Shown here: piece by piece, positions 14,385 through 45,267 of the stretch
Position numbering within the stretch: position 1 is the first letter of the stretch
Layout: every line of letters starts with the position of its first letter
Assembly: GCA_017623355.1 (NCBI GenBank)
Contig: JAGAPG010000012.1
Location: 1 to 54,883, forward strand
Source: Clostridia bacterium
GTDB lineage: Bacteria; Bacillota; Clostridia; Oscillospirales; CAG-272
Reading direction: 5' to 3'
DNA: 54,883 nt
Notes under the pieces: model-generated
Told to the model about the DNA's origin: nothing
What the model saw: the letters and a program-made list of their open reading frames with translations, nothing else
Databases searched by the model: none
Position numbers and translations under genes: made by a program

Positions 14385-14413
14385 TTGATAAATTCGTGTG
14401 TGTGTGTTATAAT
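14385..14413 (+). promoter_or_regulatory. Promoter of the acyl ligase/acyltransferase operon
   Basis: TTGATA (14385-14390), 17-base spacer rich in GT repeats, TATAAT (14408-14413). It is the only good promoter for the seven genes from 14483 to 22439. Confidence 0.72.
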
Positions 14414-14482
14414 GTGTATAAATATTGTTCATTTTTTGTTAAGAACTATGAAGCCAATTATTATTACAGCGAGGATTGATTT

Positions 14483-16429
14483 ATGCAAGTATTTGGAATA
14501 GGTAACTGTAAAACGATAGATCAGTTTGTCGATATGCAAATGTCTGCATTGAGAGGCAGAGATCAAACATTTGAGTCTGTATATGAGATCATGTTCTCAA
14601 TGCGCGATAATATAATGTTTGAAACCACTGACGGAAATAAAATTTTCAAGACTACTTACGGAGAGGTTTATGATAGGATATCCGTAATATCTTCACTTAT
14701 AAAAAATAGATTTTCTTATTGTGATCACGGTACCGTTATAGGCATCTATATGGATAATTCAATCGAGTGGATAGAAATATTCTGGTCCTTATTGAAAGCA
14801 GGCTTTGTGCCGCTTATTATAAATAAGCGATTGGATATAGAAAGACTTGAGACATTACTGAAATCAAATTCTGTAAAGGCGGTAATTACCGATTCAAGAG
14901 AATTTTCTGTTGAAACCGTACACTTTGAAGAAATTATAAACAGCTCTTGCGAAAGAATAGAGAGTAATTGGGAGGATGAAATAATTCTAATGTCCTCAGG
15001 TTCGTCAGACGACGTGAAGCTTTGCTATTACAACGGCGCTACCATATGCGAGCAAATTTATAATTCTGCGGATATAGTAAGAAAAAGCGATCTTATAAAA
15101 GCGCATTATGAGGGTTATATAAAGCAGCTTACATTCTTGCCGTTTTATCACGTTTTCGGACTTGTAGCTTGCTATATGTGGTTCGCGTTTTTCGGAAGAA
15201 CATTTGTGCTTCTTAAAAACATTTCCGGCGAAACTATACTTAATACGGTTAGAAAGCATAAGGTAACTCACATTTTTGCAGTTCCTATGCTTTGGGAAAA
15301 AATAAGAAAAAGCGCAACGAAAATAATGGAGCAAAGAAGACCGCAGCTTGTAGATAAATTCAAAAAAGGCTTGAAAATATCAAATGCGCTTCAAAGCAAA
15401 TTTTCATCCGTCGGCAGAGCATTTGCTAAAAAAGCATTTAAGGAAGTAAGAGATAATCTTTTCGGTGATAGCGTTCAGTTCCTTATAACAGGAGGCGGAG
15501 CAGTAACTACAAAGACCTTACAATTCTTTAACGGTATCGGATATCGCTTGGCAAATGGCTACGGTATGACGGAAATAGGTATAGCATCAGTGGAGCTTGG
15601 TAATTCCTCAAAGGTGCTTAACAGCGGATCTGTAGGACGGGCTTTTGGATCTGTTCAATATAGAATAAACGACAAAGGGCTTTTAGAGGTTCGTTCTAAA
15701 TCAATAGCCAAAAAAATTGTTACAAGGGGAGAAACGGTTTTATATACCGGAAACGATTGGTTTGAAACGGGCGACAGCGCGAAAATACAAAACGGACGTC
15801 TTTATATTATGGGCAGGAGCGACGATCTTATAGTAAGCTCAGCTGGAGAAAATATTTCGCCAAGCACAATAGAGGATAGAATATCGATTCCTGATACGAG
15901 TGTTTGTATGCTTGGACTCGAAAGGAAAGGAAAAATAAAGGCAACGCTAATAATTGGCGTAAGCAAATATTTTTCAAAGCAGAAGATCGCATCTATCAAG
16001 GAAGAGCTGTTTAATATAATAAAGCAAAACGGATATACCTCACTTATAGATGATGTTTGTTTTACTTATGATCCGATAATGACAGAAAACGAATTTAAGC
16101 TCAATCGCAACAATATAAGAAAAAGAATTGTTTCGGGAGACCTTAAATTGATATACCCCGAGCATTTTGAAAATGAGGAGCACGAGGAAAATATAAACGA
16201 GGAATTAAGAGAAAAGATCATTAATATGTTTTCGGATGTTTTGGAAAAGGAGATATTACCAAGCCAATGCTCGCAAAACTTCTTTTTTGAGCTTGGTGGA
16301 TCATCGCTTGCATATTTTCAGCTTATTGAAAATATAAAAGCGGAATTTAACGTTCCATTCCCTATTGTAGAGGAACAGTCAATAGCAACAGTAAATGATT
16401 TCTGCATATATTTGCAGGATAGAATTTAA
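14483..16429 (+). CDS. Adenylate-forming acyl ligase with C-terminal acyl carrier domain
   Basis: 648 residues. Residues ~20-545 form an acyl-CoA/acyl-ACP synthetase-like AMP-binding domain (YGMTEIG at ~363, FETGDSA, and the hinge stretch GRSDDLIVSSAGENISP). The nucleotide loop is degenerate: SSGSSDDVKLC replaces the usual SGTTGxPKG, keeping the Lys but losing the glycines; the C-terminal catalytic Lys region (ENEFKLNR) remains. Residues ~575-648 are an acyl carrier domain with FFELGGSSLAYF; Ser608 is the expected 4'-phosphopantetheine site. The protein may activate a fatty acid and load its own arm, or use the ligase part mainly as a transfer scaffold. It is the first gene of the lipid operon; the leader is ~60 bases. 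Confidence 0.85.
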   Translation: MQVFGIGNCKTIDQFVDMQMSALRGRDQTFESVYEIMFSMRDNIMFETTDGNKIFKTTYGEVYDRISVISSLIKNRFSYCDHGTVIGIYMDNSIEWIEIFWSLLKAGFVPLIINKRLDIERLETLLKSNSVKAVITDSREFSVETVHFEEIINSSCERIESNWEDEIILMSSGSSDDVKLCYYNGATICEQIYNSADIVRKSDLIKAHYEGYIKQLTFLPFYHVFGLVACYMWFAFFGRTFVLLKNISGETILNTVRKHKVTHIFAVPMLWEKIRKSATKIMEQRRPQLVDKFKKGLKISNALQSKFSSVGRAFAKKAFKEVRDNLFGDSVQFLITGGGAVTTKTLQFFNGIGYRLANGYGMTEIGIASVELGNSSKVLNSGSVGRAFGSVQYRINDKGLLEVRSKSIAKKIVTRGETVLYTGNDWFETGDSAKIQNGRLYIMGRSDDLIVSSAGENISPSTIEDRISIPDTSVCMLGLERKGKIKATLIIGVSKYFSKQKIASIKEELFNIIKQNGYTSLIDDVCFTYDPIMTENEFKLNRNNIRKRIVSGDLKLIYPEHFENEEHEENINEELREKIINMFSDVLEKEILPSQCSQNFFFELGGSSLAYFQLIENIKAEFNVPFPIVEEQSIATVNDFCIYLQDRI

Positions 16430-16454
16430 ACATAATTTTGGAGAGATGTGAATT

Positions 16455-18377
16455 ATGTCAAAAGTAAAAAGCTTAGATAAAAAATGGAAAGAGGTCGTTT
16501 TTGCCGCATCGGGCTTTGGACCTAATCTTATGATGATACTTATGGGTGCATACTTTACAGATGCGATAAATCCGGCAGGATTGAATCTTGCAGACAATCC
16601 GTATCACGCAATATCAACTATTTGTTATATTCTTCCCGCGATATTTCCGATACTTTGGGCAATATCAAAGGCTTTCGACGGAATTATAGATATTCCGTTC
16701 GCAAAATTGACGGACAGTCTTAATACCAAATGGGGCAGACGTCGCCCCCCAATACTCATATGCTTTATTCCTATGGTGATAAGCTATATTCTTTGCTGGA
16801 TACCGTTTGGAAGCTATGTGGTATTTAAAGCAGATCCTGCAGGACATAGCGCGCAATTGTTTAATACGATCTGGATAGTGGTATTTGCTCTTATATTCTT
16901 TAGTACATATACAATGTGCTTGATCGCGTTTTACGGTAGCTTGTCTACTGTATGTGACGGAGAAAAGCAACGACTTCGCGTTTCAAGCTATAAGGCCACG
17001 TTTGATACGATTACGTATGCAATAGTATACGCGCTCGTCCCCCTTATATTTGCTCTTACTAAGCAGCACGTAGATAAAATAGCGATATTCGGCTCTGTTT
17101 TGATGCTTACTATGCTTATCCCTCTATTTATGATAAAAGAGGGTGAAAAATACGGATATCCCGAAAAGGACGGCTTATCAGAGGAGCACGTTTCGATAAT
17201 TCAAAGTATAAAAACCACATTTGGAAACAAGGTGTTTTCCTCTTGGCTTGTAGTAAACTGTACCGCATTCTTCGGTCTTCAGATGTTCTTGGTTTCCATG
17301 AACGCGCTTTTAAGCGGAAGCATGGAATTTAACAATCTTGAAATAGCACTTGTTGAAACCTGTGCATTTGCTCCGGTTCCTATGATGCTGTATTTGTTTA
17401 ACAAGGTAAAGCAAAGAAAGGGTGTTAGATTTACATATCAAACCTGTCTTATTGCGTTTGCAATAGCTATTCTTTCATTTGATATTGCAAGCGTATATGT
17501 AAGCGGTGGAAACAAGCCGTTCCAAATGACAGTTTCAATAGTCGGGGCTCTTATCGGAAGCTGGGAAATAGGCGCATTCTTTATGATGCCTCTTATGGTT
17601 CCCGCTCAGGTATCAAGCGTAGAGGAAAAGCTTACAAAAAGAAATAATTCAGCAATGTATTTTGCAGCTCAAGCCGTTACAACTTCTGTAATCGGCGCAA
17701 TTGCATCGTCACTTGTTTATGAAAACATAAAAATGCTTTTTATAAGCAAGGAAGCAGGCGGTATCGTTTGGGCAGACGGTACAACTGAAAACGGAGTATT
17801 TATTGGAATTAAAGAGGAGGCGGCGCTTCTTCTTAACTCAAACATAGATAATGTTTATAATTTTGGTACACTTTTAGTACCTATAATCGTTTCCGTAATG
17901 TGCCTTTTTGGATTTATTATGGCGTTCAGAATGCCAAAGGATTTCACTCCGGAGCTTGTTGCCAAGGAGCTTAAAAGACAAAATCCCAACCTTGATATAT
18001 CCGCAGCAGTAACAGAGGAAGCAGATATTGCAAAGGAAAAGGACGTAACCTTCGTAAACGTAGCATATTGGATTCTTTCAGGCTCTATTTTCGGATTTAT
18101 CTGGAGCGCCTTCCAGCTTAGATCATTCAAAAATAAGAACACTCTTATTGCTAACAGCACGCCGCTTACATGGATGCTTTCAGCAATAATACCGTTCTTC
18201 TCGATATTCACATTCAAAAAGCTTTATGGCAATTTGAAGAAACAAGCGGAAGAAAAGAATGTGAAAATAACAGATGTAAGAGTTCTTATGGTTCTTTCTG
18301 TTATCTTCCCGATACTTCCTGTAAACGTAATATCTTTAGCGTTGCTTCAAAGAGATATGAACAAGGTAGACGCATAA
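16455..18377 (+). CDS. MFS_2 (GPH-type) transporter with extra C-terminal membrane domain
   Basis: 640 residues. The first ~500 form a 12-helix MFS_2/glycoside-pentoside-hexuronide-type transporter, with the signature KAFDGIIDIPFAKLTD and NTKWGRRRP between helices 2 and 3. MFS_2 members move sugars with cations, but the superfamily also includes lysophospholipid carriers of the MFSD2A type. After a soluble linker (~500-535), two or three more hydrophobic segments begin with VAYWILSGSIFGFIWSAFQ, resembling the DUF4234 pattern; that resemblance is tentative. Setting within an acyl-transfer operon, 25 bases after the ligase, suggests it moves the lipid product or its acceptor. GGAGAG precedes the ATG. 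Confidence 0.8.
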   Translation: MSKVKSLDKKWKEVVFAASGFGPNLMMILMGAYFTDAINPAGLNLADNPYHAISTICYILPAIFPILWAISKAFDGIIDIPFAKLTDSLNTKWGRRRPPILICFIPMVISYILCWIPFGSYVVFKADPAGHSAQLFNTIWIVVFALIFFSTYTMCLIAFYGSLSTVCDGEKQRLRVSSYKATFDTITYAIVYALVPLIFALTKQHVDKIAIFGSVLMLTMLIPLFMIKEGEKYGYPEKDGLSEEHVSIIQSIKTTFGNKVFSSWLVVNCTAFFGLQMFLVSMNALLSGSMEFNNLEIALVETCAFAPVPMMLYLFNKVKQRKGVRFTYQTCLIAFAIAILSFDIASVYVSGGNKPFQMTVSIVGALIGSWEIGAFFMMPLMVPAQVSSVEEKLTKRNNSAMYFAAQAVTTSVIGAIASSLVYENIKMLFISKEAGGIVWADGTTENGVFIGIKEEAALLLNSNIDNVYNFGTLLVPIIVSVMCLFGFIMAFRMPKDFTPELVAKELKRQNPNLDISAAVTEEADIAKEKDVTFVNVAYWILSGSIFGFIWSAFQLRSFKNKNTLIANSTPLTWMLSAIIPFFSIFTFKKLYGNLKKQAEEKNVKITDVRVLMVLSVIFPILPVNVISLALLQRDMNKVDA

Positions 18378-18379
18378 TA

Positions 18380-19036
18380 ATGGGTAGAATTTTTTCAGGG
18401 TTCGTAAAGCTTACAGCTTATCCCGCGGAGCTTGTATGCTTTCGTACAAAGATACATTATGAGGATAAAAAAGAGCAGGGACGAAAAATAAAGGGCGCGG
18501 CAATTCTGATATGCAATCATACTGCGGTTTGGGATTTTGCTCAGCTTATGCAGATTTTTTTTGGAAGACATATTCGTTGCCTTACAGCAGATCTTATGTT
18601 TAAAAAGAATAAGGCTATGAATTTTTTGATGACACACCTTGATATGATAAAAATAAGCCGTGAGAGCAAGAACTTTTCCTTTATTGAAGAATCCTTAGAT
18701 GTGCTTAATGAGGGCGGAGTTATAGAGATTTATCCCGAATCAAGAATATTAAAACCCGGTGAGCAATTTCCATTGGAATTCAAACCAAGCGCGGCGTATA
18801 TAGCTCTTTTGTCAAGAGCTCCCGTTATTCCTGTTTATACAGACGGAAATTATTTTGGCAAAGGCAGAGCGAATGTTATTATTGGCAAAAAGATAGACGT
18901 AAATACGCTTATTGATGAAGATGCCGATGTTTCGGAAAATATCAAGCGAATAAACGATCATATGAGAAATAGGATAGTGGAACTGAAAAATGAGCTCGAA
19001 AAACGAAAAGAAGAAAAACAAAGGAAAAAAATATAG
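18380..19036 (+). CDS. PlsC-type acyltransferase A
   Basis: 218 residues from ATG 18380, two bases after the transporter stop; a longer upstream frame overlaps the transporter and is not credible. The HX4D catalytic motif is present as NHTAVWD (~53-58). The second PlsC block, usually FPEG, reads IYPESR, so the Gly is replaced. AAYIALLSRAPVIPVY is the typical third block. The family transfers acyl groups from CoA, ACP or acyl-phosphate to lysophospholipid or, in some branches, to amino acids. The basic tail (KRKEEKQRKK) and N-terminal hydrophobic stretch suggest membrane-surface binding. The end overlaps the next acyltransferase by 47 bases. Confidence 0.85.
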   Translation: MGRIFSGFVKLTAYPAELVCFRTKIHYEDKKEQGRKIKGAAILICNHTAVWDFAQLMQIFFGRHIRCLTADLMFKKNKAMNFLMTHLDMIKISRESKNFSFIEESLDVLNEGGVIEIYPESRILKPGEQFPLEFKPSAAYIALLSRAPVIPVYTDGNYFGKGRANVIIGKKIDVNTLIDEDADVSENIKRINDHMRNRIVELKNELEKRKEEKQRKKI

Positions 19037-19691
19037 GACTTTTTCGATAAAGCGTTTATTTTATGACTTTGTGAAATGGACCGGCGTTATACCTATGGCA
19101 ATATTTTTTAGAATGAAAATATTCAGAATAGGTAAAAAAGAAAAATTCAAGGGTGCTATTATGATGTCGAATCACATCGGTATGCTTGATCCTATAGTAA
19201 TTCAATTTGTATATCCGTTTCGCAGGCTTTGGTGTCTTGCGATGAAGGAGCTTTTCAGAAGCCCTCTTTTGACAGCGTTTTTAAAGGGCGTAAACTGTAT
19301 TCCTGTAGACAGACAGAACGTTACCATAGATATGTATCACAGTGTAGCGGATGTTTTAAGCTCCGGAAAGATAGTCGCTATGTTCCCCGAGGGACAGATA
19401 AATTTCGATAAAGAAGCGGAGATAAAAAATTTCAAGGGAGGAGCAGCGCTTTTTGCTATCTTGAATAAAGTGCCTGTAATTCCTGTATATATTGTAAAAA
19501 AGACAAAAAAACTTGAAAGACAAAAAATTATTGTTGGTGAGCTTATACATCTTGAAAATGTATGTGGACGGACACCTACTCTTGCTGATCTTGAAGTGAT
19601 AAGCGAGCATCTTCATCAAAAGGAGAAAGAGCTTGAGCAATATTATTTAAAAAATATAAAAAGGGAGAAAACGAATGCAAATCAAGGCTAA
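18990..19691 (+). CDS. PlsC-type acyltransferase B
   Basis: 233 residues. It has the canonical motifs: SNHIGMLD (HX4D, ~60-65), FPEGQIN (~131) and GGAALFAILNKVPVIPVYI. It is therefore expected to be catalytically intact, unlike its neighbour with the altered second motif. The N-terminus is very basic (SSKNEKKKNKGKK), fitting a peripheral membrane enzyme. Two PlsC enzymes in tandem suggest two successive acylations, or one acylation plus a modified partner. It overlaps the upstream acyltransferase by 47 bases and the downstream ligase by 17 bases, so the operon is tightly coupled. Confidence 0.88.
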   Translation: MSSKNEKKKNKGKKYRTFSIKRLFYDFVKWTGVIPMAIFFRMKIFRIGKKEKFKGAIMMSNHIGMLDPIVIQFVYPFRRLWCLAMKELFRSPLLTAFLKGVNCIPVDRQNVTIDMYHSVADVLSSGKIVAMFPEGQINFDKEAEIKNFKGGAALFAILNKVPVIPVYIVKKTKKLERQKIIVGELIHLENVCGRTPTLADLEVISEHLHQKEKELEQYYLKNIKREKTNANQG

Positions 19692-21204
19692 TTTGTTAGA
19701 GGAACGCTTTACCTCAAAGGAAACAGCTCAAAAAATGAAGAAATTTTCCTGCATATCGGAAATGGCTGATCATATTTTTGAAGAGTATAAAGAAAAAATA
19801 GCACTTGTAGACAATGGTATAGAGTATACATATTCTGACATCGAAAAAAAGGTTGGAGCAATAAGAAATGCGCTTAATGAAAATGGAATAAAGGAAGGGG
19901 ATAAGGTCGGAATTTTTTATCCCAACTCTGCGGATTTTGTAATTGCTGCTATGGCTGTCACCTCTTACGGAGCAGTTGTTGTTGCTTTACCGTATCATCT
20001 TGATGAAAAAACTCTTTACGGATGTACATTGAAATTCCAAATTTCTGCTTTGATATACGACAGTATGTCAGAGGAAAAGGTAGAACTTGCGTATAAGCTT
20101 AACTCGAATCTTAAAAAAATACTTTCCGATAAGATAGCCGATGGATTCGCTCCTTCCAATAAGGTATCACCCGATGCTCCATGCGCAATAGTATTTACAG
20201 CAGGAACAACGGGACAAAGTAAGGGCGCGCTTCTTTCTCATAAGGCTATTTTGGCAGGAACGATGAACGGATGTATGGGATTCAGAGACTACGACGTTTT
20301 CGGTCAAAGATATTTTCTCGTGCTTCCTCTTACTCATATTTTCGGATACGTTCGTAATATGATGACAGCACTTTATACGGGTAGCTCTATGTATATTTGC
20401 CGAGATACCAAAAATATGTTCAGAGAGATCCCTACATATAATCCTACAATTATGATAATGGTTCCCGCACTTGCAGAAATGGCTCTTGGACTAACCAAAA
20501 TGCTTGGCACAAAAATACTTGGAAACTCGCTTAAGCATATAGTAGCAGGCGCAGCAGTGGTAGCTCCGCGTCTTGCAAAGGAATACAATAAGCTTGGTGT
20601 AACGCTTCTTGCAGGCTACGGTCTTACCGAATCCGCAAATCTCGTTACAGGGAACCCGGACACCTTAGAAAATCCTACATCTGTAGGCTTCCTTTATCCA
20701 AATCAGGAAATAAAGGTTGTAGACGGTGAGCTTTGGCTTAAGGGTGATAATGTATTCACTGAATATTATAACGATCCCGAGGAGACCGCAAAGTCGTTCG
20801 AGGACGGGTACTTTAAGACAGGAGATCTTGTAAAATTCGATGATAACGGATATATGTATATCGTGGGAAGAATAAAGGATATAATAGTTCTTTCAAGCGG
20901 AGAAAACGTAGCTCCCGAGGAGCTTGAATCAAAATTCCGCGAGATCGATTGCGTTCGTGATTGTCTTATTTATAAAGGAACGAACGAAAGCGGAAACGAG
21001 GCTCTTATATTTGAAATGACACCTCGTATGGACGTTATAAAGGAGCTTGGCATCGAGGATGTCGGAGCATACTGTACTCAAAAGGTAACTGAGGTAAATA
21101 ATACGCTTTTGAATTATCAAAAGGTATCTAAGATAATAATAAGAACAGAAGATTTTGAAAGAACTCCAAGTATGAAAATAAAGAGGCCAAAGAACATATT
21201 ATGA
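19675..21204 (+). CDS. Acyl-CoA/acyl-ACP synthetase (AMP-binding ligase)
   Basis: 509 residues with a complete set of AMP-binding motifs: TAGTTGQSKG (175-184), AGYGLTES (~319), YFKTGDL (~380), VGRIKDIIVLSSGENVAPEELE and the C-terminal catalytic Lys region TPSMKIKR. It should adenylate a carboxylic acid, probably a fatty acid, and pass it to a pantetheine thiol. The ACP gene follows with an ATGA overlap, so the free ACP is the likely acceptor (compare AasS-type acyl-ACP synthetases). GGGAG lies seven bases before the ATG. It is the intact counterpart of the carrier-fused ligase at the head of the operon. Confidence 0.9.
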   Translation: MQIKANLLEERFTSKETAQKMKKFSCISEMADHIFEEYKEKIALVDNGIEYTYSDIEKKVGAIRNALNENGIKEGDKVGIFYPNSADFVIAAMAVTSYGAVVVALPYHLDEKTLYGCTLKFQISALIYDSMSEEKVELAYKLNSNLKKILSDKIADGFAPSNKVSPDAPCAIVFTAGTTGQSKGALLSHKAILAGTMNGCMGFRDYDVFGQRYFLVLPLTHIFGYVRNMMTALYTGSSMYICRDTKNMFREIPTYNPTIMIMVPALAEMALGLTKMLGTKILGNSLKHIVAGAAVVAPRLAKEYNKLGVTLLAGYGLTESANLVTGNPDTLENPTSVGFLYPNQEIKVVDGELWLKGDNVFTEYYNDPEETAKSFEDGYFKTGDLVKFDDNGYMYIVGRIKDIIVLSSGENVAPEELESKFREIDCVRDCLIYKGTNESGNEALIFEMTPRMDVIKELGIEDVGAYCTQKVTEVNNTLLNYQKVSKIIIRTEDFERTPSMKIKRPKNIL

Positions 21205-21443
21205 CAAGAGAAATGATAATCGAAAAGCTCCGGAATATATTCAAAATGGTTAATGGAAACGATAATATTGAGGTTGATGAAGCAACAGATCTTCGCACAG
21301 GACTCGGACTTAATTCAATAGGTATGCTTTATATGATAATAGCTATTGAGGAGAATTTCGGAGTGCGCTTTGAAAATGTATCTATGGGCGATTTCAATAC
21401 CGTTTCCGATGTGATTAATTATATAGAGGAGCAGAAGAAATAA
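21201..21443 (+). CDS. Acyl carrier protein
   Basis: 80 residues, normal ACP length, acidic and helical. The phosphopantetheine site is GLGLNSIGM with Ser39 (Asn replaces the usual Asp of DSL). It starts inside the stop of the upstream ligase gene (ATGA) and ends one base before the LRAT-PPTase gene, giving the order ligase, carrier, carrier-activating enzyme. It differs from a housekeeping fatty acid ACP by context and by the divergent motif, so it is probably dedicated to this pathway. Confidence 0.9.
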   Translation: MTREMIIEKLRNIFKMVNGNDNIEVDEATDLRTGLGLNSIGMLYMIIAIEENFGVRFENVSMGDFNTVSDVINYIEEQKK

Positions 21444-22439
21444 ATGAAGTGGGTTTTGAAGGAGATAAAACCTGCCGATATGGTTCGTGTTCCGTCGGGA
21501 AGCTTTTATCATTACGGTATTTGCGTAGACGAGGATTCTATTGTTCAGTTTGGAGAGAGTGTTGTAAATCCGCTTGTCGATCCAAACACAGTAGAGGTGA
21601 ATAAAACCGACATAAATGACTTTTTAAGAGGTCGCTTTGCAGAGGTTGCCGAATACGATAAAAAAGAGCTCAAAAGGAAAAATCCTGACGAAAAAATAAT
21701 TGAATATGCAAATAAAAGTATAGGGAAAAAAGGCTATCATATCCTCTATAATAACTGCGAGCATTTTGCAAATGAATGCGTGTTTAATGTTCACTCCTGC
21801 TCGCAAACTGATGATTTTAGAGAAAGCTTATCAAAAAAATTTCCTATGGTTGATGTCTATATTGCGAGTGTTGACAGATTTAAAAGCAACAAGATCTTGC
21901 CTAAATACGCAAAGACAGAGTTGAAGGCTGTAAAAAACGAGTCCTTGGCAGAGCAAAAAAGAGCCGTTTACGGACTTTTACAGTATGCTGTGAAAAATTC
22001 CTTTGGTAAGGATGTTAATATTAAATCAATGTCAAAGGATGAAAGAGGAAAGCCGCATATGCAGGATTATAGCTTTTCTGTTTCGCATACAAGGGAGCTT
22101 GTTTGTGTTGCGGTTTCAAAATCGAATATAGGCGCAGACCTTGAGGAAATAAAGGAGCATAGCGCAACGTCACCGCTTAAAACGCATATTCTTTCGGAAA
22201 GCGAAAAAGACAAAGAATATACAAAAGAAGAGCTTTTAGAGCTTTGGACCAAAAAAGAGTCTATATACAAGTTTGATGACGGTATAAAAAGCTATATTCC
22301 AAAGGAAATAGACACAAATCTGTATCAAACCAAATCTGTAAAAATAGATTTTGAGAAAAAGCAATATAGCCTTTCTGTAACTGCAGTATCTGTAATGAAT
22401 GTGAATATTTTAACATTAGATGGAAGAAAAGCGACTTAA
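21444..22439 (+). CDS. LRAT-like acyltransferase domain fused to Sfp-type 4'-phosphopantetheinyl transferase
   Basis: 331 residues with two parts. Residues 1-~120 show the NlpC/P60-related LRAT pattern: PSGSFYHYGICV (His23), a beta-rich core and NNCEHFANECVF (Cys105, His107), the catalytic Cys motif of lecithin:retinol acyltransferase-like enzymes. Residues ~136-331 are a phosphopantetheinyl transferase: SVSHTRELV (His215), GADLEE (Asp232, Glu234, metal site) and LWTKKES (Trp268, Lys271, Glu272). The second half would activate the ACP and the carrier domain of this operon; the first could take an acyl group onto Cys105 and move it to an amine or alcohol, or hydrolyse it. It is the last gene; its stop lies in the terminator stem. 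Confidence 0.85.
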   Translation: MKWVLKEIKPADMVRVPSGSFYHYGICVDEDSIVQFGESVVNPLVDPNTVEVNKTDINDFLRGRFAEVAEYDKKELKRKNPDEKIIEYANKSIGKKGYHILYNNCEHFANECVFNVHSCSQTDDFRESLSKKFPMVDVYIASVDRFKSNKILPKYAKTELKAVKNESLAEQKRAVYGLLQYAVKNSFGKDVNIKSMSKDERGKPHMQDYSFSVSHTRELVCVAVSKSNIGADLEEIKEHSATSPLKTHILSESEKDKEYTKEELLELWTKKESIYKFDDGIKSYIPKEIDTNLYQTKSVKIDFEKKQYSLSVTAVSVMNVNILTLDGRKAT

Positions 22440-22456
22440 GTCGCTTTTTCTTTTTT
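22427..22456 (+). terminator. Terminator of the lipid operon
   Basis: AAAAGCGACT and its mirror AGTCGCTTTT form a 10-bp palindrome (22427-22446) followed by a T-rich run. The TAA stop at 22437 is in the stem, so the last gene and the terminator overlap. Confidence 0.8.
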
Positions 22457-22564: not shown

Positions 22565-22593
22565 TTGACAAAGTAGAAATATAATATTATAAT
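22565..22593 (+). promoter_or_regulatory. Promoter of the secreted protein gene
   Basis: TTGACA (22565-22570), 17-base spacer, TATAAT (22588-22593), a near-consensus pair. Confidence 0.85.
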
Positions 22594-22642
22594 ATCTGTA
22601 ACACTACTATACAACTATATAAAAATTATAAAAGGAGAATTT

Positions 22643-24391
22643 ATGAGAAAAAAATTATTCTTATTTGTCGCTATGGCAGCAATGCTTATGTGTCTTTTTG
22701 CTATCACGTCAAGCGCGGCAGAGCCGAGCTATAAGGATGGCGAGTGGATATATGCCAGCGACGGAACAACAAAGCTCGCAATAAGAGATACAGACGGCAA
22801 CCCGCTTATTTGGTATATGAATGGCGACGAGCTCAAATGGGTAAGAGCAGACCAAACAGACATAACTCAGCCTGTTTATGTTAAATATAAAATAGAGGCA
22901 GGCGGAAGCGGCTTTAGCGGAGTTTCACCTCAAAAAACACTTAAAGACATCGATATTTACGATAACAGTACTCAAATTGAATGCGCCGGTATCAATTCGG
23001 CTTTAGTTCTTATTAATTTGGAAAAGCTTGATATTGATGCTTTAAACGGTTGGTTGTGGGGCAACAAACACGGTTGTTGTCTATTGATGAGAGGAATAGT
23101 ACTTCCTTCTTCTCTTAAATATATAGGTCAAGAAGGCTTTACTAACACGAGGCTCGTTCAAATTTGGAATCTTGAAAACACGCAGCTTGAGTATATAAAT
23201 AATTCTAGCTTTGCGACTACAGTAACACTTACCCAAGAGGCAACTAATGGAGTTTTCAAAAGTCCTCAAACAATGCCCATTTCGGCACAAAATTCATCTA
23301 TAAAGCAATATTATATGCATCCTATGTGTACATTCAACACATGTCAAAAATGGTATCAGTTATTTAGAAATTGTAAGCAATTAGAGAAGATAATAGTTCC
23401 GTCTCATTTTGAAATCGGTTTTGGCGAAGAGGCGTTTTACGAAACTCCCAAACAGTATATTTTGTTTATTACAGGAACAGAGGAACAGGCAACAAATTTG
23501 AGAGATAATACTCAATCATATCGTAATGGTAATTTTACATCAGCTAAAGTAATTTCCTATGAAATATATTTGGCTGATCAAACAACATATGATAATGCTA
23601 CAAATCAAGTGTATATTGTTTATGGATATAACTTCTGCGATGCCTTTTATGAGGGAGCACACGATCTTAGTAACGACGACGGACTTTGCTCGACGGAAAC
23701 AAAATGTGCAAGAAAAGACTGCGGAATAGTTGCAATAGAGGCGCAAGAGCATAAGCTTAATATAACGATGTCATATAACGACGGATACGGAGCAGCAGGC
23801 ACAAAGGTTTGTGACTGTCCTAATGAAAACTGCACAAAGGAAGACGGAACATTCACCCTTGATCCTATCTTCGTAGCAGAGGGATACTCCATAAGAGAAG
23901 ACGGCAAGTCACTCCTTGGCGGATATAGAATAAATAGCGACGCTCTTAAGGCGTATAACGAATATACCGGTACGAAGCTCACATACGGTATCGTAATGTC
24001 AAACGCAGCAAACGTGGTTATCACAAACGGTAAATATACGGGCGGCAAGGGCTTGATGGTATCCGAAAGCAACGAGAGCTACACTACCGTTAAATACGTA
24101 GTAAGCGGCTTTAGCGCGACGAAGGAGCTTACAGACCTTGGTCTTGTAATATCACTTTACGTAGTAGATGGTAACGGAATGAGCTTTATTCAAAACGATA
24201 CCGCATACGATAGCGCAAATGCTAATGTAGACGGCGCAAATACTGCAATAAATGCTATAACCTTCGGCTACATAGCTCAAAAGACTCTTAACGAGGATGA
24301 AGCTATCGGCGAAGACTACAAATCAATTCTTGAAGCAATAATCAAGGTTTCCGAAACTACAGCTTTGCCTGTACAGTCTGATGATGAATAA
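22643..24391 (+). CDS. Secreted BspA-like cell-surface protein
   Basis: 582 residues with a Sec signal peptide (MRKK, hydrophobic core, cleavage near SSAAEP at ~25). Residues ~100-280 contain degenerate leucine-rich repeats of the BspA/TpLRR kind (e.g. LPSSLKYIGQEGF, CKQLEKIIVPSHF). A Cys-rich stretch follows (~350-395, about eight Cys, e.g. CSTETKCARKDCG and CDCPNENC), then a ~190-residue C-terminal domain with no cell-wall sorting signal I can see. Such proteins act in adhesion or surface recognition. It is monocistronic with a strong promoter and a terminator. The C-terminal third seems richer in GC than the repeat part, suggesting modular assembly. Confidence 0.75.
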   Translation: MRKKLFLFVAMAAMLMCLFAITSSAAEPSYKDGEWIYASDGTTKLAIRDTDGNPLIWYMNGDELKWVRADQTDITQPVYVKYKIEAGGSGFSGVSPQKTLKDIDIYDNSTQIECAGINSALVLINLEKLDIDALNGWLWGNKHGCCLLMRGIVLPSSLKYIGQEGFTNTRLVQIWNLENTQLEYINNSSFATTVTLTQEATNGVFKSPQTMPISAQNSSIKQYYMHPMCTFNTCQKWYQLFRNCKQLEKIIVPSHFEIGFGEEAFYETPKQYILFITGTEEQATNLRDNTQSYRNGNFTSAKVISYEIYLADQTTYDNATNQVYIVYGYNFCDAFYEGAHDLSNDDGLCSTETKCARKDCGIVAIEAQEHKLNITMSYNDGYGAAGTKVCDCPNENCTKEDGTFTLDPIFVAEGYSIREDGKSLLGGYRINSDALKAYNEYTGTKLTYGIVMSNAANVVITNGKYTGGKGLMVSESNESYTTVKYVVSGFSATKELTDLGLVISLYVVDGNGMSFIQNDTAYDSANANVDGANTAINAITFGYIAQKTLNEDEAIGEDYKSILEAIIKVSETTALPVQSDDE

Positions 24392-43242: not shown

Positions 43243-43261
43243 ATGTGGTATAAAAGATTTT

Positions 43262-43406
43262 ACAGAGTAAATATATGTGCGTTAAGTGTCAAAAGGACGG
43301 GGAGTTGCCTTTTGAACGAAGACCTCGGTTGCGGTACATATATTGCATCCCGCTGGACTCATCTCCAAAATGGTTGCTTAAAATCTGTATATCATTTTAG
43401 GAGGTG
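43262..43406 (+). ncRNA. Tetrahydrofolate riboswitch with putative anti-Shine-Dalgarno
   Basis: The aptamer (43262-43355) has the THF conserved blocks AGAGTAAAT, GCGTTAAGTGT, GAACGAAGACCTCGGTTGCGG (in part) and TTGCATCC followed by CGCTG. Downstream, CATCTCC (43360-43366) can pair with GGAGGTG (43400-43406), the ribosome site of the next gene, with one G-U pair. This suggests translational control by folate. Confidence 0.88.
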
Positions 43407-43413
43407 TTTTTTT

Positions 43414-45267
43414 ATGAAAAAAATTTCAGAAACTTCAATCAAAAACGATATTTATGCTTTCGGAAATCTTAAGATTTTGATTTCTGCGGCGCTTATGGTG
43501 GCATTAAGCATAATCTGCGGCAAATTTTTAGCTATAAGAGGCGGAAATATCCTTAGATTCAGCTTTGAAAATATGCCAATACTTTTTACTTCGATAGCCT
43601 TTGGACCTCTTATGGGAGCTGCATGCGCTGTCTGCGCAGATCTTATCGGATGTCTTATGGTTGGATATGAGATAAACCCTATCGTGACCTTGGGAGCTGC
43701 TGCAATAGGATTTTTTGGAGGCTTGATTTATAGGCTTTGTTTTAGATTGCCCGAGGTTGTAAAAATAATAATTTCAGTGTCTGTAGCGCATATTATCGGC
43801 TCTGTTGTTATAAAAACGTTCGGTCTTGCTAAGTTTTATAGCATTCCGTTTGCAGAGCTTATGCTATGGAGACTCTTGAATTATATAATAATAGGATTAT
43901 TGGAAATATTGATACTTTGGTATCTATTCAAAAATAAAGCAGTTATGAATCAGATAAAAAATATCAAATTATCAAATAAGATCAGAAGGGCGACGCCGAT
44001 GAACTATAATGATGCACTTGAATATATACACAAAATAAATTGGTGCTTCTGCAAGCCCGGGCTTGAAAGAATAACCGAGCTTTGTGAGAAGCTTGGAAAT
44101 CCTCAGGATAAGCTCAAATTTATTCATGTCGCCGGTACGAACGGAAAGGGCTCGTTTTGTGCAATGCTTTCATCAGTATTAAAGGCGAACGGATATAAGG
44201 TTGGTATGTATACGTCTCCGTATGTAAGGGTGTTCAATGAAAGAATGGCTATAAACGGAGAAATGATACAGGATGATGAGCTTGCAAAAATAACGGAGTA
44301 TGTAAAGCCGTTTGCAGATGAAATGTCGGATAAGCCAACAGAATTTGAACTCATAACAGCAATCGCGTTTGAATATTTTGCAAGAAATAATTGTGAATAC
44401 GTCGTTCTTGAATGCGGTCTTGGCGGACGTCTTGATTCTACGAATGTAATAAAGACTCCTGTTTTAAGCGTTATTACGGGTATATCTATCGATCACGTCT
44501 CGATATTGGGGGATACTGTTGAAAAAATAGCTTTTGAAAAAGCAGGAATTATAAAGCCCGGAATACCGTGCCTTTGGTGTGGAGAGAATGAGCTTGCATA
44601 TCGGGTTATAGAAAGAAGAGCAAAAGAGCTTAATGCTCCTCTTGTTACTGTATCTCACCGCGATACCAATATTAATAGAATGGATATAAACGGAACAGAA
44701 TTCGATTATAAGCACTACAAGAATGTAAAAATAAATCTTTTGGGAGAGTATCAGCCGTTTAATGCTACTAACGTGCTTTCTGCTATTGACATTTTGATAG
44801 AGCAGGGAATATCATTGAATAAAGAGCATATATTTGAGGGATTTTCTTCAGTAGAATGGCATGCCAGATTTGAAATTCTTTCTAAATCACCGCTTGTAAT
44901 CGCTGATGGTGGGCATAATATAGAGGGAGTAAGGGCTGCTGTAAACAGTGTGAAAAGATATTTTCCTCAGGAAAAGATCAATGTTGTCAGCGGAGTTATG
45001 GCTGACAAGGATTATGATATGATCGCTGATATAATAGGAGAAATAGCGCATGAGGTTTATTGCTTAACACCCAACAATCCGCGCGCCTTATCTGCAGAGG
45101 AATATTCAAGGGTATATCTTGAAAAAGGAATACAGTCATCTCATTATTCTGATGTCAGAGACGCGCTTTCTGCGGCAATAGAAAATGCTAAGATAAATGG
45201 GCGTAAGGTCATTTGCTTGGGCTCGCTTTATATGTACTCTGAGGTTTGTGAATTTTTTGAAAAATGA
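43414..45267 (+). CDS. Fusion of folate ECF transporter S component (FolT) and folylpolyglutamate/dihydrofolate synthase (FolC)
   Basis: 617 residues. Residues 1-~190 are an ECF S component with about six helices (e.g. SFENMPILFTSIAFGPLMGAA), FolT by context and riboswitch. Residues 196-617 are a full FolC: HVAGTNGKGS (P-loop), EFELITAIAF, ISIDHVSILGDT, FEKAGIIKPG and VIADGGHN. FolC adds glutamate to folates, which traps them in the cell; tying it to the importer would couple uptake and retention. The ATG 43414 follows AGGAGG. An internal ATG at 43999 with AAGGG upstream could also make free FolC. The energising EcfA/EcfT genes are not in the window. Confidence 0.9.
   Translation: MKKISETSIKNDIYAFGNLKILISAALMVALSIICGKFLAIRGGNILRFSFENMPILFTSIAFGPLMGAACAVCADLIGCLMVGYEINPIVTLGAAAIGFFGGLIYRLCFRLPEVVKIIISVSVAHIIGSVVIKTFGLAKFYSIPFAELMLWRLLNYIIIGLLEILILWYLFKNKAVMNQIKNIKLSNKIRRATPMNYNDALEYIHKINWCFCKPGLERITELCEKLGNPQDKLKFIHVAGTNGKGSFCAMLSSVLKANGYKVGMYTSPYVRVFNERMAINGEMIQDDELAKITEYVKPFADEMSDKPTEFELITAIAFEYFARNNCEYVVLECGLGGRLDSTNVIKTPVLSVITGISIDHVSILGDTVEKIAFEKAGIIKPGIPCLWCGENELAYRVIERRAKELNAPLVTVSHRDTNINRMDINGTEFDYKHYKNVKINLLGEYQPFNATNVLSAIDILIEQGISLNKEHIFEGFSSVEWHARFEILSKSPLVIADGGHNIEGVRAAVNSVKRYFPQEKINVVSGVMADKDYDMIADIIGEIAHEVYCLTPNNPRALSAEEYSRVYLEKGIQSSHYSDVRDALSAAIENAKINGRKVICLGSLYMYSEVCEFFEK

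Follow-up and report, generated by a model that had tools for sequence, protein, structure and literature searches.

Bacteria possess two well-described means of placing acyl chains that they have not synthesised themselves, or that have been detached from their own lipids, onto glycerolipids, and both are used here as terms of comparison. In the Aas-LplT system of Escherichia coli, a transporter, a PlsC-type acyltransferase and an acyl-ACP (acyl carrier protein) synthetase cooperate on lysolipids (PMC13170283). In the FakAB-PlsX system, exogenous fatty acids reach PlsY and PlsC as acyl-phosphate and acyl-ACP, the former being made by FakAB and converted by PlsX into the latter, which is used by PlsC (PMC10146087). 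The present analysis deals with a stretch of 54,883 nucleotides from a genome of a Clostridia bacterium of the order Oscillospirales (contig JAGAPG010000012.1, assembly GCA_017623355.1; hereafter the window), in which seven genes, LIG1-ACP, MFS2, PLSC1, PLSC2, LIG2, ACP and LRAT-PPTase (PPTase, phosphopantetheinyl transferase), form one transcription unit at positions 14385-22449. It is likely that this operon is a cassette for the salvage of acyl chains and the assembly of membrane lipids, replacing a lost fatty acid synthesis. The best explanation of its composition is that it is a self-contained set, functionally analogous to Aas-LplT and FakAB-PlsX, in which parts of the PLAAT type and of the MelB/MFSD2A type have been incorporated.

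By its logic the nearest system is Aas-LplT, while by its linkage it is FakAB-PlsX. The LIG2 and PLSC2 profiles match the corresponding domains of E. coli Aas, with 130 bits for the ligase domain and 46 bits for the PlsC domain, although the second likeness is at family level only, because another PlsC of the same genome fits PLSC2 as well (47 bits). In contrast to Aas-LplT, the cassette encodes separate proteins, two PlsC enzymes, a second ligase fused to a carrier, its own ACP and PPTase, and a PLAAT-like domain. Moreover, MFS2 comes from another MFS family and its profile does not match LplT (E 0.29, -2.1 bits), for which reason membership of the Aas-LplT system is not claimed, although MFS2 may still work like LplT. 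With regard to FakAB-PlsX, sister cassettes adjoin the genes for FakA, FakB and PlsX, whereas the cassette of the window contains ligases instead of Fak. No described counterpart of the PLAAT-Sfp fusion or of the carrier-fused ligase was found in the open-licence literature.

Organisation and conservation of the operon

A preliminary description of this DNA had proposed a seven-gene operon for acyl activation and transfer in a single transcription unit, and this is confirmed by the promoter, the terminator and the domains of the encoded proteins (Table 1). The -10 hexamer of the promoter is conserved in two of the related loci (L002 and L003) and the -35 hexamer is the same in L002 alone; no clear operator was seen in the region upstream of the operon. 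Terminator-like sites separate the unit from both of its neighbours. On the upstream side lies a glycerate-kinase-like gene; the downstream gene, which has its own promoter match, gives a weak leucine-rich-repeat match.

The cassette is not restricted to the window. Scanning GTDB genomes by LRAT-PPTase gave 53 loci, 15 of which (L040-L054), where no other cassette gene was found, were dropped before any counts were made. In 36 of the 38 loci the cassette is conserved whole or in part, with the LRAT gene following the ACP gene and at least one ligase present, and a chance neighbourhood is rejected on this basis. It had also been considered that relatives might hold these genes separately, in housekeeping roles, or that an identical cluster might already have a known product; the former was not seen, since the genes stay together in the same 36 loci, and the latter did not turn up in the open-licence literature, where no description of the gene set was found either, in agreement with the earlier remark that it was not recognised as a described system.

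All seven genes occur in 16 of the 38 loci, four of them with an LRAT gene that has no PPTase half, and five loci end at a contig border within the cassette. PLSC1 and PLSC2 are fused to a single protein in six Lachnospiraceae; LRAT genes without PPTase are found in six Lachnospiraceae and in L028, L029, L031, L032, L035 and L039; and a smaller set, PLSC2-LIG2-ACP-LRAT-PPTase, is present in L014, L017, L019, L022 and L023. The host genomes are drafts and carry the label Clostridia, Clostridiales, Oscillospiraceae, Lachnospiraceae, Bacilli, Bacillota or Erysipelotrichaceae, and the sample, where it is named in the record title, is ruminant gut. For the counts that follow, L011 (no ketosynthase and one FabZ match in its genome) and L038 (a weak ketosynthase match) were excluded from the 36 cassette genomes; L114 is the same locus as L003, and G411 and G634 are one genome, with identical places of their PlsX and PlsY matches. 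In a tree of LIG1, the cassettes of the window's order fall into several separate clades with those of Lachnospiraceae and Bacilli between them, its root being unsure and several deep forks weak. This suggests that the cassette has spread by transfer or anciently, and is not the oddity of one lineage.

Table 1. Features of the operon, in positions of the window
Feature	Position	Strand	Details
Promoter, sigma-70-type, TTGATA-17-TATAAT	14385..14413	+	TG before second hexamer; 11/12; consensus match only
LIG1-ACP, divergent AMP-binding (adenylating) enzyme with C-terminal acyl-carrier domain, 648 aa	14483..16429	+	Pfam AMP-binding 9e-37, PP-binding 9e-7
MFS2, MFS_2/GPH-type transporter, 640 aa	16455..18377	+	Pfam MFS_2 4.5e-31
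PLSC1, PlsC-type acyltransferase, 218 aa	18380..19036	+	Pfam Acyltransferase 2.5e-17
PLSC2, PlsC-type acyltransferase, 233 aa	18990..19691	+	Pfam Acyltransferase 8e-22
LIG2, canonical acyl-CoA/acyl-ACP ligase, 509 aa	19675..21204	+	Pfam AMP-binding 5e-62
ACP, free acyl carrier protein, 80 aa	21201..21443	+	Pfam PP-binding 7e-9
LRAT-PPTase fusion, LRAT/PLAAT-like domain	21444..21840	+	about residues 1-132
LRAT-PPTase fusion, Sfp-type PPTase domain	21841..22439	+	about residues 133-331
Terminator-like site ending the unit	22426..22449	+	10-pair stem, 4-base loop, T-rich tail

Two other regions of the window may be mentioned in their own right. Directly behind the operon, at 22565-24391, a 12/12 promoter match lies in front of a gene whose product begins like a signal peptide and gives a BspA-type leucine-rich-repeat match slightly below the cut-off. 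At 43243-45267, a protein of 674 aa joins a region that weakly matches ECF-transporter S-components to Mur ligase domains.

Proteins of the cassette

It had been proposed that this operon activates acyl groups on carriers and then transfers them, and such a function is supported by the domains and residues of its proteins, from which all of its reactions and substrates are inferred here. In LIG1, K179, E364, D431, R445 and K539, together with Ser608 of the fused carrier, are invariant in 27/27 sequences, the adenylation loop being SSGSSDDVKLC, a departure from the usual form. K501 of LIG2 is kept in 29/29 and the other residues checked in this protein are invariant except for two gapped rows at two sites. 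The phosphopantetheine Ser39 of the free ACP is present in 37/37. In both acyltransferases the expected motifs are complete: HX4D and PE in 28/28 rows of PLSC1, six of which are PLSC1-PLSC2 fusions, and HX4D and PEG in 28/28 rows of PLSC2. The residues checked are thus invariant in PLSC1, PLSC2, ACP and LIG1. None of the seven proteins matched an NCBIfam model above its cut-off among the matches listed, which for the two ligases are the best 25 of 80 and the best 25 of 104.

Distant homologues of LIG1 (180-229 bits) exist without the remaining cassette in L126-L131 and L109, two of them in open reading frames (ORFs) of 922 and 1105 aa. A further gene group with PlsC enzymes lies in another contig of the window's genome (L135:871-5986, contig C2) and consists of an alpha/beta hydrolase, a PlsC, a glycosyltransferase 8 and a glycosyltransferase 8-PlsC fusion of 583 aa, possibly an acylated glycolipid cluster.

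The LRAT half of the fusion resembles PLAAT2/3/4 both by sequence and by fold. Its catalytic His-Cys dyad, with the Cys in an NCEHF setting, is invariant across the loci and the conserved Tyr is present, whereas the second His of PLAAT, the third catalytic residue, is replaced, position 35 being Q in 33/38, A in 4/38 and E in 1/38. Given that this third residue is polar and may be dispensable in LRAT (PMC3142127), membership of the wider LRAT/PLAAT family stands. The other half has the pseudo-dimeric Sfp fold, and differs from known Sfp-type PPTases in its fusion to an LRAT domain and in that its gene adjoins those of the carriers which it presumably serves.

No PPTase-family match other than the fusion was obtained in the window's genome. 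The same seems to apply to 20 of the 25 genomes of the fusion type (L002-L026), whose sole match is an ORF of 331-354 aa, of the size of the fusion, identity with it being deduced from ORF length and not from the contig; of the others, three have an additional separate PPTase, one has a PPTase of 235 aa only and one has none above the threshold. By comparison, 11 of the 12 LRAT-only genomes possess a separate PPTase and one possesses none. Across the phylum, 64/398 genomes were detected by the LRAT-PPTase profile, many through a PPTase or partial LRAT match alone, and G260, G083 and G308 have LRAT matches of 1e-36 or lower.

MFS2 belongs to the MFS_2 family by its Pfam profile (108 bits against a cut-off of 27), and it is proposed to be an importer or flippase of lysolipid or another amphiphile. 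Its structure model (pLDDT 75.5) has as best Foldseek row MFSD2A, the mammalian transporter of lysophosphatidylcholine, in complex with this lipid, and shows a C-terminal extension past the transporter fold, in which it differs from MFSD2A; a sequence search of the PDB with the MFS2 profile found no MFS chain. Residues were compared with those of MelB in a MAFFT alignment, which is supported by a match of the MFS2 profile to MelB (19.5 bits). D55, D59, G117, T121 and K377 are cation-site positions of MelB according to PMC8329300, where Asp124, Trp128 and Lys377 are also named, for the sugar site. In this alignment, D55, D59 and T121 are retained in 18, 17 and 18 of 18 MFS2 rows, respectively. 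The residues of the sugar site, to which K18, D19, R149 and W342 also belong, are replaced, and an operon for a sugar transporter is rejected on this account.

Fatty acid synthesis and acyl activation in the host genomes

Neither a ketosynthase (PF00109) nor FabZ was found in the window's genome, which is 77% complete. No ketosynthase was found in 30 of the 36 cassette genomes detected by LRAT, nor was FabZ in 29 of these 30 (G418 has one), the synthase markers being these two families as read in draft genomes. In the controls, FabZ is present in 10/10 ketosynthase-positive genomes and in 0/13 ketosynthase-negative genomes without the cassette, three of the latter being cassette-free by the LIG1 listing or unlisted there.

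In the window's order, fatty acid synthesis seems to have been lost often: 134 of 295 genomes have no ketosynthase at 1e-20 (103 among the 252 with a completeness of 90% or more). Such absence is more frequent with a strong LIG1 match, 12/13 genomes versus 122/282 of the others (Fisher 0.0008, with relatedness ignored). Eight of the 21 order genomes with a LIG1 match are weak (280-374 bits) and were not counted as strong; around the seven of them that were examined (all but G693) no further gene of the cassette was present, and the cut was chosen in the light of this. With all 21, the figures are 17/21 versus 117/274 (Fisher 0.001).

The enzymes of glycerolipid synthesis, by contrast with the synthase markers, are kept. 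PlsY is present in 71/73 and PlsX in 65/73 of the genomes searched, and in 49 and 44, respectively, of the 50 rows of cassette kind, the single genome G411/G634 being counted twice in both totals and the L011 genome being included in the 50. PlsX was found neither in the window's genome nor in G410, its closest relative by LIG1.

The linkage of the cassette also points to the use of exogenous fatty acids. LIG1 cassettes belonging to other families of the order adjoin FakA, FakB, PlsX and alpha/beta hydrolases, and those of Lachnospiraceae and L035 adjoin FakA or FakB. Altogether, FakA or FakB occurs at 17/37 LIG1 loci and PlsX at 6/37, and a Hydrolase_4-kind alpha/beta hydrolase at 27/49 loci. 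LIG2 and Fak tend to exclude each other at the 37 LIG1 loci: 16 have LIG2 but no Fak, 15 have Fak but no LIG2, two have both and four neither (Fisher 5e-5, a test that ignores relatedness and includes short loci). This reads as LIG2 and FakAB being two exchangeable means of activating the acyl chain. In the window's genome, FakA and a DegV/FakB sit on another contig. Among the recurring neighbour families scanned (16/36), those tied to lipids are fatty acid kinase, DegV/FakB and alpha/beta hydrolases.

Proposed role, alternatives and significance

Since the synthase markers are mostly missing, PlsY and in most cases PlsX are kept, and sister cassettes lie beside FakA, FakB and PlsX, the operon is seen here as feeding the synthesis of ordinary glycerolipids. 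The same facts leave unsupported the part of the preliminary description in which it makes and moves a specific acylated product apart from normal phospholipid synthesis. In the proposed pathway, the source of the chains would be pre-formed gut lipids, from which acyl-ACP would be made and the chains passed into glycerolipids. The Sfp half, judging by its fold and by its being the usual sole PPTase, would convert both cassette carriers to holo-ACP, and LIG2 (FakAB-PlsX in sister cassettes) and LIG1 would load fatty acids onto the free and the fused carrier, as their family, residues and linkage suggest. MFS2, its sugar site gone and probably cation-coupled, may import or flip a lysophospholipid or other amphiphile, and PLSC1 and PLSC2 would acylate the lysolipid or lysophosphatidate using acyl-ACP. 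PlsY, with PlsX if present, would link the cassette to phosphatidate synthesis. The least certain step is that of the PLAAT-like LRAT domain, which might strip or move acyl chains among phospholipid, lysolipid and possibly ACP, and could correspond to hydrolysis, remodelling or ACP loading.

Several observations weigh against this role. Some cassettes have no MFS2, LIG2, LIG1 or PLSC1. The closest solved relatives of LIG1 by profile are succinylbenzoate-CoA ligases, and those of LIG2 are also CoA ligases (oxalate-CoA ligase and FadD13), an acyl-ACP synthetase scoring far lower, so that loading of ACP by LIG1 and LIG2 is derived from linkage. The MFS2 model fits MelB and MFSD2A equally, a fold that does not separate lipid from sugar cargo, and G117 and K377 of MelB are replaced in MFS2, at places where the alignment is unsure. 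FakA is present in 67 of the same 73 genomes, including the window's, and the cassette is therefore seldom the sole route of activation. Apart from the narrow set of markers and the draft state of the genomes, six Lachnospiraceae cassette genomes contain a double-ketosynthase ORF of 792-821 aa and FabZ, their only other ketosynthase match being weak or there being none; the one read out (L132:4491-10920, in G438) has a double ketosynthase (KS) of about 805 aa in an AccAD-FabD-FabZ-FabG-KS-KS cluster. These six do possess a synthase, although an odd one. In the window's order, G545 has ketosynthase and FabZ alongside a reduced cassette, and a mate of the window's genus, G004 (cassette state untested), has a ketosynthase. 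Strong LIG1 is absent from 122 of the 134 ketosynthase-less genomes of the order, including G003 of the window's genus, which makes the cassette unnecessary for life without the synthase; other solutions must therefore exist.

Among the alternatives, the one that survives best is the recycling of lysophospholipids or membrane repair, as in Aas-LplT, whereby the cell would reacylate its own lysolipids with no bulk supply of acyl chains, a possibility that we consider rather unlikely. A transporter, PlsC domains, a ligase and an ACP in one operon do parallel LplT-Aas (PMC13170283), Aas is matched by both the LIG2 and PLSC2 profiles, and PLAAT1 transfers acyl chains from phosphatidylcholine to monolysocardiolipin (PMC9224490). 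Repair alone, however, leaves unexplained both the missing synthase markers in most cassette genomes and the FakAB and PlsX genes beside sister cassettes, and MFS2 has no similarity to LplT.

Within the salvage role, a direct loading of ACP by the PLAAT-like domain is proposed because this domain is consistently encoded after the ACP and is fused to the PPTase. According to this speculative scheme, which we hold to be unlikely, the domain would take an acyl group from imported phospholipid or lysolipid through an acyl-cysteine and pass it to the phosphopantetheine thiol of the upstream ACP, giving acyl-ACP without ATP and, together with the MFSD2A-like importer, a bacterial route for eating lipids. 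If true, the phospholipids of the host or the community would supply the membranes, and neither free fatty acids nor fatty acid synthesis would be needed.

It is improbable, in our opinion, that the association with synthase loss is indirect, cassette and loss both marking certain gut lineages with reduced genomes. Such a link would agree with the 134 ketosynthase-less genomes of the order being mostly without the cassette and with the lack of correction for relatedness. Nevertheless, the LIG1 tree, within the limits given above, separates the cassettes of the order, and the linkage to FakAB and PlsX is independent of the loss. In family f6, moreover, the cassette genome G722 (100% complete) has no ketosynthase versus 23 sampled members with one, although the contrast is not clean, since its genus mate G668 has six ketosynthase matches, at least five of them in ORFs of polyketide synthase size.

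A dedicated acylated product (an N-acyl amine, an unusual glycerolipid or a signal), separate from membrane lipid synthesis, is very doubtful. N-acylation of amines occurs among LRAT relatives, a pair of ligases that have carriers and a PPTase of their own resembles biosynthetic gene clusters, and the fusion of a carrier to LIG1 is unusual. However, none of the neighbour families scanned looks amine-supplying or tailoring, those tied to lipids include PlsX in sister cassettes of the order as well as the families named above, and the hosts have mostly small, synthase-less genomes, pointing to a core role. A siderophore or polyketide cluster is rejected, no ketosynthase having been found in the window's genome and no tailoring gene in the operon.

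The salvage and assembly role acquires its interest from bacteria that have lost the synthase. Nayfach et al. (2019) called it notable that the uncultured order RF39 has lost fatty acid synthesis completely, and could only suggest incorporation of exogenous fatty acids through a route then recently described in Firmicutes (PMC6784871); reduced gut genomes without fatty acid synthesis have also been reported from farm animals (PMC12306168). For this gap in the knowledge of synthase-less gut bacteria, the operon provides a concrete and testable gene set, which occurs in records labelled as at least two classes, Clostridia and Bacilli, and it offers enzymes such as the PLAAT-Sfp fusion and the carrier-fused ligase. 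It is predicted that synthase-less species bearing the cassette depend on lipid in the medium, a point of relevance to their culturing. The cassette would probably help to explain how its gut-bacterial hosts live, the majority of which appear to lack the ability to make fatty acids.

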